49,286 nucleotides of DNA. Origin: Acidobacteriota bacterium (GTDB taxonomy: Bacteria; Acidobacteriota; UBA6911; RPQK01; JADFOI01). Numbering within the stretch: the first letter of the stretch is position 1; every line of letters starts with the position of its first letter. The notes under the pieces are model-generated. The model worked only from the letters and a program-made list of their open reading frames with translations. It ran no database searches and was not told where the DNA came from. Where the stretch lies: the NCBI GenBank assembly GCA_022562935.1, contig JADFOI010000007.1, positions 1 to 49,286 of the forward strand. The letters run 5' to 3'. Below, piece after piece: positions 19,719 through 22,894 of the stretch. Made by a program: the position numbers and the translations under genes.

Positions 19719-20453
19719 ATGCTAGAGCGGCTACAGAAAGTTGTGGCAGCTGCAGGAGTCGCCTCGCGGCGAAAGGCAGAGCAGCTGATCCTGGAGGGGC
19801 GTGTCTCGGTCAATGGCCAAACCGTCACTCGATTGGGTACCAAAGTTGATCCTCGGAAGGATCACGTCAAGGTGGACGGCAAACTGATTCGGCCGGAGCC
19901 TCTGGAGTACTTTATCGTCAACAAACCCCAAGGTGTCCTGAGTGCCGCATCCGATCCTTCAAATCGCCCTCTTGTGACCCAGCTGGTACGCTCGCGAAGA
20001 AGACTTTATCCGGTAGGGAGACTGGACTTTCAGAGTGAAGGATTGATGATTCTGACCAATGATGGAGAATTGACCCGAGGGATCACTCGAGCAGGAAACC
20101 TGAAAAAGGTCTACCATGTCAAAGTGCACGGCCAACCCAGCCAGGAGAAACTGGATCGGCTTTGTGGCGGAATGAGAATTGAGGGGGAAAAGTTTGCCCG
20201 ATGCGAGATTAGGGAATTGAAGAGAGCTCGGAACTGTTGGTTTGAAGTGGTCCTTCGGGAGGGAAGGAACCGCCAGATTCGGCGCATGTTTGAACACGTG
20301 GGCCATCTGGTCATGCGGGTTCGCCGAACGGCGATTGGACCGCTGGTTTTGGGAGATCTTCCCCCCGGTGGTTATCGGAAGCTGACCTCCAGGGAAGTAC
20401 AATTGCTGCAGGAGAAGAAAAAACCGAAGCAAAAAAGTAAAAAATCAGGATAA
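19719..20453 (+). CDS. rluB: Ribosomal large-subunit pseudouridine synthase B-like
   Basis: This is an RsuA/RluB/E/F-family pseudouridine synthase of 244 residues acting on rRNA. An N-terminal S4 domain (LQKVVAAAGVASRRKAEQLI) is followed by the catalytic domain with the aspartate in LYPVGRLDFQSEGLMILTND. GRNRQIRRMFEHVGH is the conserved RNA-binding motif. The RluB assignment over RsuA or RluF rests on length and the usual scpB-rluB neighbourhood. The lysine-rich tail (EKKKPKQKSKKSG) is common. ribE begins 9 nt after the stop. Confidence 0.92.
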   Translation: MLERLQKVVAAAGVASRRKAEQLILEGRVSVNGQTVTRLGTKVDPRKDHVKVDGKLIRPEPLEYFIVNKPQGVLSAASDPSNRPLVTQLVRSRRRLYPVGRLDFQSEGLMILTNDGELTRGITRAGNLKKVYHVKVHGQPSQEKLDRLCGGMRIEGEKFARCEIRELKRARNCWFEVVLREGRNRQIRRMFEHVGHLVMRVRRTAIGPLVLGDLPPGGYRKLTSREVQLLQEKKKPKQKSKKSG

Positions 20454-20462
20454 TAGAGGGAG

Positions 20463-21683
20463 ATGTTTACCGGAATCGTTCAGGATATGGGAAAAATCCT
20501 TGCCAAGGAGCAGAGCGAGGATGGAGCCAGCTTTGAAATCGGATCGGAAAAAGTGCTGGCGGATCTCAAGCCTGGAGACAGTATCAGTGTGGATGGTGTC
20601 TGCCTGACGGTGGCAGAGAAGATGAAGGGGGCCATCCGGTTGGAGTTGGCACCCGAGACGCTCCGTTGCACTAACCTGGGAGAACGCCGCTCAGGGGATC
20701 AGGTGAATCTCGAGCTCTCGGCCAAACTGACCGATTTTCTGGGAGGACACCTGGTTCAGGGTCATGTGGACCAAACGGGTGAAGTTCTTGCCATCACGCC
20801 GGAAGGGAATTCCAAGATCTTTCGCATCGCCGCTCCAGCCGAGATCCTGCGATACTGCACCCTGAAAGGGAGTATCACGGTCAATGGAGTGAGCCTCACT
20901 CTCTCGGCCTTAGATTCAGAGAGCTTTGAAGTCACAATCATTCCCCACACCCTCAAGGTGACGAATTTTCAGCAGCTCGAGGTAGGCAACAGCGTGAATC
21001 TGGAAGCAGACGTGGTGAGCAAATACGTGGAATCCCACGTGAGTAAATACGTGGAATCCCATGTGCGGCGTCTTCTGGGACTGTTCGTAGGGTTCTTCTT
21101 TCTCAGCTCGACACTGCTTTTGGGAGGCGATTTTGCTCTGGGCCCAAAGTCGATACTGGTTTATTCCAACCAATCCCTCGAGCAGAAGGAAACCCAATTT
21201 GTGTTGCGACTAGCCCGGTATCGCCCCGACATTTTCCTGGAGTGGGAGTCCAGGACCGATCAAGGGACCATTCATCTTCACCGAAAGGCCGTCAGCAAAG
21301 CCGGGAGGTTTACCGTCAGTTCGCTGTTTGATGTGGGTGTCGATGTGGAATCTTCTGAAGTGATGACGCTCTGGCTGTCCGAGAAGATGTACCGGGATCT
21401 CATCGAAAAGGGGGAGGCCCGGATTGCGCTCAATCGCTCGCCGATAACACTGACCCTCAAGGATGCGGGAACCTACAGTTTGACCATTAATAAACAGGTT
21501 GAGGAGATTCCTGTCATCCATGTGGAGGACAATCGGAAGGGTTCCTGGACCTTTCATAAAAGCGGCGAAAACCCACTTCTAGTGGAGTATGTCACTCCTT
21601 ACTTCCATCAATACCTGAAAACGGTCTCCACGGATCCGAGCAATAAACTCCGCTGGATCAACGAGTTACCTCCCGTTAGATAG
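20463..21683 (+). CDS. ribE: Riboflavin synthase fused to a signal-peptide-like segment and an unknown domain
   Basis: Residues 1-200 are riboflavin synthase alpha chain with two lumazine-binding barrels: MFTGIVQ and DSISVDGVCLTV in the first, GGHLVQGHVDQ, KGSITVNGVSLT and HTLKVTN in the second. It dismutates two 6,7-dimethyl-8-ribityllumazines. The normal protein ends near residue 200, but here the frame continues to 406. Residues 201-225 (VRRLLGLFVGFFFLSSTLLL) look like a signal peptide or membrane segment. Residues 226-406 form an unrecognised, probably beta-rich domain. The junction holds a 24-bp tandem duplication. The codon for V201 is GTG and could start a separate exported protein. 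Whether this is one fusion protein or two in-frame genes without a stop between them is not settled. Confidence 0.88.
   Translation: MFTGIVQDMGKILAKEQSEDGASFEIGSEKVLADLKPGDSISVDGVCLTVAEKMKGAIRLELAPETLRCTNLGERRSGDQVNLELSAKLTDFLGGHLVQGHVDQTGEVLAITPEGNSKIFRIAAPAEILRYCTLKGSITVNGVSLTLSALDSESFEVTIIPHTLKVTNFQQLEVGNSVNLEADVVSKYVESHVSKYVESHVRRLLGLFVGFFFLSSTLLLGGDFALGPKSILVYSNQSLEQKETQFVLRLARYRPDIFLEWESRTDQGTIHLHRKAVSKAGRFTVSSLFDVGVDVESSEVMTLWLSEKMYRDLIEKGEARIALNRSPITLTLKDAGTYSLTINKQVEEIPVIHVEDNRKGSWTFHKSGENPLLVEYVTPYFHQYLKTVSTDPSNKLRWINELPPVR
21015..21062 (+). repeat. 24-bp tandem duplication at the riboflavin synthase fusion joint
   Basis: Two consecutive 24-bp units (21015-21038 and 21039-21062) differ at two positions and each encodes VSKYVESH (residues 185-192 and 193-200). 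The first unit matches the normal C-terminal helix of riboflavin synthase. The second leads into GTG CGG CGT, the first codons of the signal-peptide-like segment. Confidence 0.9.
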
Positions 21684-21757: not shown

Positions 21758-22894
21758 ATGCCTTTAGACAAAGTTAAAGACGCCATCGACGACTTTCGGG
21801 ACGGGAAAATGGTCATCGTCATCGACGAGGAAGATCGTGAGAACGAGGGCGATCTAACCCTAGCCGCGGAAAAAGTTACTCCCGAGATCATCAATTTCAT
21901 GGCCAAATATGGACGGGGGTTGATCTGTATGCCCATGACGGGCGAGCGGTTGCGCGAGTTGAACATTCCCCTGATGGTGGCCAAGAATGAATCGATTCAT
22001 GGAACGGCTTTTTGTGTGAGCATTGAGGCACGCCGTAACGTGTCCACCGGTATTTCTGCCTCCGATCGTGCCATCACCATTCAAACCGCGGTGGATCCCA
22101 AATCCCAGCCGGGAGATCTGATCCGGCCGGGTCATATTTTCCCGCTGCGAGCGCGTCGAGGTGGAGTCTTGAAGCGAGCAGGGCAGACAGAGGCCGCTGT
22201 GGATATGGCTCGGATCGCAGGGCTCTCTCCAGCCGGCGTCATCTGTGAAATCATGAACGACGATGGGACCATGGCGCGGCTTCCGGAGTTGAAGGTATTT
22301 GGCAAGAAGCATGACCTCAGGATTATCTCTGTTGTCGATCTGATTCATTTTCGTCTCAAGACCGAGCAATTTGTCAGACAGGTCCAAAAAGTGCCCTTCG
22401 ATTCAGAGTTTGGACGGTTCGAGCTCTGCCTATTTGAAAATGAATTAGAGGGTGATCTCCATCTGGCATTGGTGAAGGGGGATCTTAAAGGGAAGGAACC
22501 CGTGCTGGTGCGGGTTCAGAAGGAATCGGTGCTCGGAGATGTATTCTTGACCTTGAAGAGTGATCAGGGACGGGAACTCAGACGTTCACTTGAAATGATT
22601 GAGCAGGCGGGACGAGGTGTTCTCGTCTATCTCCGGATAAGAAGTGAAGAAAGAATACTTATGCGGGAGTTTCAGCAGCATAAGGTAGCACTAGAGGAGC
22701 AGGAACTCCAGCTCGGCCAACCGCACACGGTTGATTTTAGAGACTACGGGATCGGGGCCCAAATTCTTGCCAGTTTAGGCCTTCACAGGATTCGGCTCTT
22801 AACCAATCATCCCAAAAAAATGGTGGGATTGGAGGGATTCGAACTCGACGTTGTGGAACAGATCCCGATCGAAATCAAAGAGTCGGTGAGCTGA
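21758..22894 (+). CDS. ribB: 3,4-dihydroxy-2-butanone-4-phosphate synthase with a degenerate GTP cyclohydrolase II-like domain (RibBX type)
   Basis: Residues 1-205 are a complete Rib[11 protein letters not shown] (23-32), [16 protein letters not shown] and [21 protein letters not shown]. It makes the four-carbon unit of riboflavin from ribulose 5-phosphate. Residues 206-378 align with GTP cyclohydrolase II, but the three zinc cysteines are replaced: C to S257, and the CDC pair to S268 and Q270. The GQEGRGIGL region after GVLVYLR reads IRSEERILM. The later DYGIGAQIL and RLLTNHPKK are kept. This matches the published RibBX variant, in which the RibA-like part is not catalytic. A working GTP cyclohydrolase II would have to be encoded elsewhere. 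Confidence 0.92.

Follow-up and report, generated by a model that had tools for sequence, protein, structure and literature searches.

The riboflavin synthase alpha chain (RibE; TIGR00187; PDB entries 1I8D, 4E0F and 1KZL) is among the closest described counterparts of the protein analysed here; the entire enzyme part, with both of its lumazine-binding barrels, aligns with it, and so does the beginning of the C-terminal helix. The solved riboflavin synthases are chains of 207-213 aa, for which we know of no membrane segment, whereas the C-terminal helix encoded in the window, by which the whole 49,286-nucleotide stretch of DNA is meant, enters a hydrophobic segment that is followed by a second domain. 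In inferred architecture and topology, with no sequence relation claimed, the protein resembles single-pass proteins of the ToxR/CadC type, which have a cytoplasmic N-domain, one membrane helix and a periplasmic C-domain; their cytoplasmic part is a DNA-binding domain, whereas that of the window protein would be a biosynthetic enzyme. The C-terminal helices of RibE hold its trimers together (PMC10366380). Among the riboflavin fusions named in a survey of B-vitamin pathways are RibDd/RibDr and RibFa/RibFk, which likewise join a riboflavin gene to another domain, with partners that differ from the one in the window (PMC4921024). No published counterpart of a membrane-anchored or fused riboflavin synthase was found in titles and abstracts, subscription papers lying mostly outside this search.

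The ORF at 20463-21683 on the forward strand encodes 406 aa from ATG to TAG without an internal stop, as given by the sequence, the ORF list and the translation. It comprises a complete riboflavin synthase (RibE, residues 1-200), one hydrophobic segment (about residues 202-222) and a domain of 180 aa (X), in that order. Upstream on the same strand lies a pseudouridine synthase gene that we take to be rluB (19719-20453), and downstream, also on the forward strand, a DHBP synthase/GTP cyclohydrolase II gene, presumably ribAB (21758-22894), which shares the pathway of RibE. The order scpA-scpB-rluB-ribE-X-ribAB is kept across loci by tblastn synteny.

The RibE part (20463-21062, forward strand) consists of two lumazine-binding barrels and a C-terminal helix. 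Residues 1-199 match riboflavin synthase (NCBIfam TIGR00187, E = 3.3e-62; PRK09289, E = 5.2e-66), Pfam PF00677 occurs twice in the ORF above its curated cut-off, giving two Lum_binding domains in one chain, and a PDB search aligned this part with the solved enzymes 9ryj (residues 1-196 of the window protein), 1kzl (1-201), 1i8d (1-195) and 4e0f. These matches bear out the claim of an earlier note on this DNA that the enzyme is complete to residue 200; its addition that the enzyme normally ends there holds only approximately, as the separate RibE of relatives ends at about 199-225 aa. The tails of separate RibE proteins (SHVQRFLEG..., SHVERILG...) are homologous to the stretch of the window protein that leads into the hydrophobic segment. 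The RibE of the window is the only Lum_binding protein found in its genome. Among other RibE genes of the phylum with unusually long open frames, the four that were readable end normally at 206-225 aa and carry no C-terminal fusion. An extra C-terminal tail of RibE that ends in a conserved motif like TIEYLKxQGF is found at loci L014-L029, those of family f10 included, and is absent in the window's order.

The positively charged joint (VRR) and the hydrophobic segment occupy residues 201-222 (21063-21128, forward strand). The sequence LLGLFVGFFFLSSTLLLGG (residues 204-222) is the sole strong hydrophobic segment of the protein, with a KD19 value of 2.01, the next highest being 1.04, and judged by hydropathy alone the protein has the pattern of a single-pass protein, one segment of spanning length with positive charges on its N-terminal side. 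In all six species in which the fusion was found, the KD19 maximum of the protein falls on the hydrophobic segment of the joint, which is again the sole strong one, a basic pair RR or KR stands before it, and the G ending the hydrophobic stretch is kept ([LV]L[LF]G). The segment is probably an inner-membrane anchor or an uncleaved signal sequence, and the enzyme would thereby probably be tied to the inner membrane. A low-confidence full-length structural model places a helix over residues 185-204, where the joint lies and pLDDT is below 50.

The search for relatives covered 100 relatives and 18 genomes of the order. G000, G002, G005, G003 (family f1), G007 (f2) and G009 (f4) each encode the entire 406-aa query in a single open frame, all with the same open joint, confirming the absence of a stop between the enzyme and the signal-peptide-like helix. 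The fused state thus extends over six species, which belong to five genera in three of the order's families and are represented by separate MAGs. Identity of the fusion protein between genera is 55-65%, and dS is saturated or nearly so across the more distant pairs. Between G000 and G002, dN/dS was 0.09 for RibE, 0.24 for the joint and 0.18 for X, values that rest on few differences. In a scan of named genomes, the fused copies lie in public MAG records of Acidobacteriota that stem from different projects; one relative belonging to family f3 is labelled Candidatus Aminicenantes.

That relatives might always have two genes with a stop between them, as the earlier note had considered, is not what was found, since separate, +1 overlapping and fused states were all seen. 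RibE and X are split in the order's other six RibE-bearing species (four in f3, G011 and G014). In f3 (L009-L012) and in G011 (f6, L013), X occupies the +1 frame, with an ATG that falls within the SKYV codons of RibE, the start context in f3 being AAG-TATG-TGG; ribE ends some 50-70 nt past this ATG, and the secretion signal of X is encoded over the RibE tail. In G014 (f6) the frame of X is also +1 and its start is uncertain, probably past the ribE stop, and it was grouped with the separate genes. Elsewhere in the class X mostly has a gene of its own, with a likely start, assigned by eye, 1-7 nt past the ribE stop. At locus L007 (G020) ribE shares its reading frame with X, and one TGA and three codons stand between them ahead of the ATG of X. 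Separate, overlapping and fused arrangements form a graded natural series of how the gene of a secreted protein joins that of a cytosolic enzyme.

In a concatenated tree of rluB, RibE, X and ribAB, the fused species make up one side of a branch with a support of only 41/44, and a single origin of the fusion would be the simplest reading of these sequences. The ancestral state would have been a closely coupled ribE-X pair, in which the secretion signal of X came to share the reading frame of the ribE tail. The 24-bp tandem duplication at 21015-21062 (forward strand), described in the earlier note and recovered by TRF (span 21015-21065, 92% matches), has 22 of 24 bases identical between its copies, encodes VSKYVESH twice and makes the C-terminal helix of RibE eight residues longer. 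It is common to both g1 genomes with the gene, G002 among them; G005 (g4) has a diverged eight-codon counterpart, and G003, G007 and G009 have none. The duplication was considered as the cause of the fusion and ruled out: being absent from three fused species, it did not make the joint, and from its distribution it arose after the fusion or independently of it.

The reading that we favour, and consider reasonably likely, is that the ORF gives one protein, derived from the coupled ribE-X pair, in which the C-terminal helix of a cytoplasmic RibE passes into a membrane helix and X is periplasmic. RibE would remain on the cytoplasmic side, the C-terminal helix by which it trimerises would continue past RR or KR into a single membrane-spanning helix, and X would be located in the periplasm. 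This orientation is what the positive-inside rule would predict from the basic pair before the segment. We infer the single polypeptide, the membrane topology, the display of X as a trimer and possible benefits such as a fixed 1:1 ratio or flavin synthesis at the membrane. A more specific version, offered tentatively, is that the clade's only riboflavin synthase is tethered to the membrane through its trimerisation helix and coupled across the membrane to a periplasmic trimer of X, whose role may be ligand binding or flavin delivery. The genomes carrying the fusion also have lumazine synthase (RibH), but a membrane-fixed riboflavin synthase, if the protein is made whole, would not be expected to pack inside the lumazine synthase capsid.

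One polypeptide could also be cut by signal peptidase past the hydrophobic segment, so that RibE would be held in the membrane by a hydrophobic tail and X would be free in the periplasm. Separate X genes do have ordinary signal peptides, such as that of f3, MWKRTFVTILGSLLIIPASSKA, with an SKA site, and the conserved small residue past the hydrophobic stretch (LLxG) could serve as a weak site. The position -3 before this G is, however, a bulky L or V in the fused species, in contrast to the SKA site in the unfused protein of f3, and an internal signal behind a folded domain of 200 residues is usually an anchor, making cleavage rather unlikely.

The production of two proteins from one frame, namely the fusion or RibE plus X initiated internally at the GTG of V201, was proposed in the earlier note and appears improbable. 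A GTG before RR or KR in G000, G002, G003 and G007 would yield a textbook signal peptide, and X does begin within the ribE tail, in the +1 frame, in the f3 and G011 relatives. However, the codon equivalent to V201 is GGC in G005 and GTA in G009, and the missing start codon in these two is evidence against an internal initiation common to all fused species. The V also belongs to the tail of separate RibE proteins (SHVQRFL, THVRHH), so V201 need not be a start. With a standard anti-Shine-Dalgarno sequence assumed, the Shine-Dalgarno energy at GTG201 is -3.3 kcal/mol, near the median of -2.8 that internal start-like codons give as background; the RibE start has a stronger value, -5.2. The overlapping X starts of f3 are likewise weak (-3.3), so weak pairing by itself does not exclude internal initiation. 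The proposed start at V201 is nevertheless weakened by its background-level pairing together with GGC in G005 and GTA in G009. Of the two arrangements put forward in the earlier note, the tethered enzyme is thus better supported than internal initiation by the conserved in-frame joint and the RR or KR with its hydrophobic segment.

An assembly or sequencing error at the joint, or a recently lost stop codon, is extremely improbable, for although the window is one contig of a 188-contig draft genome, the same open joint is present in six species from separate assemblies and the duplication in both g1 genomes, and the lost stop suggested earlier would not be recent, the fusion being old and conserved over the six species.

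The X domain of the favoured single protein covers residues 229-406 (21147-21680, forward strand) and belongs to a class-restricted, exported family. Of 38 genomes of the class, 29 carry X, each in a single copy. Among 396 genomes sampled across the phylum, weak matches were found in three genomes of one other family, and no match in the remainder. From these searches X is an Acidobacteriota family restricted to one class. No family match was obtained in Pfam, NCBIfam or PHROG, profiles of X gave only chance-level matches to PDB sequences, and none was found on plasmids by tblastn. The earlier description of an unrecognised, probably exported domain agrees with this lack of a family match and with the signal-peptide-like start that X has of its own as a separate gene in relatives. 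Positions that the separate genes conserve (R22, P28, EWE, QGT, D129, R131, N143 and LRW; alignments A1 and A6) are kept in the fused X, Q40, N143 and LRW being nearly invariant in alignment A6, with LKW in G009. The finding points to an uncharacterised exported family tied to the ribE locus.

An AlphaFold2 model of X (10 alignment rows, pLDDT 64) is rich in beta structure and has two or three helices besides. The best structure matches of this low-confidence model are folds of the LolA, RseB and ependymin-related kind and VioE, with best E values of 0.004-0.01, none below 0.001, and TM mostly 0.2-0.38. These likenesses are weak and lack profile support: hhalign of X against LolA_like (PF17131) proteins of the class gave a probability of 0.1%, and X had no Pfam match to LolA_like. 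A lipid- or ligand-binding role suggested by the model is a lead only.

In five genomes, G010, G013 and G016 of family f5 and G018 and G023 of f7, no Lum_binding riboflavin synthase was found. All but G013 have lumazine synthase, and RibA/RibAB-like proteins occur in every one; the genomes may be incomplete, or the bacteria may rely on a different riboflavin synthase or import riboflavin. The joint absence of X and RibE in f5 and f7 was rejected as evidence for mutual dependence of the two, because rluB is also missing in most of those genomes. In G022, X follows cmk rather than ribE behind rluB, and ribE lies on another contig (L073), from which it follows that X needs no riboflavin synthase as its neighbour.
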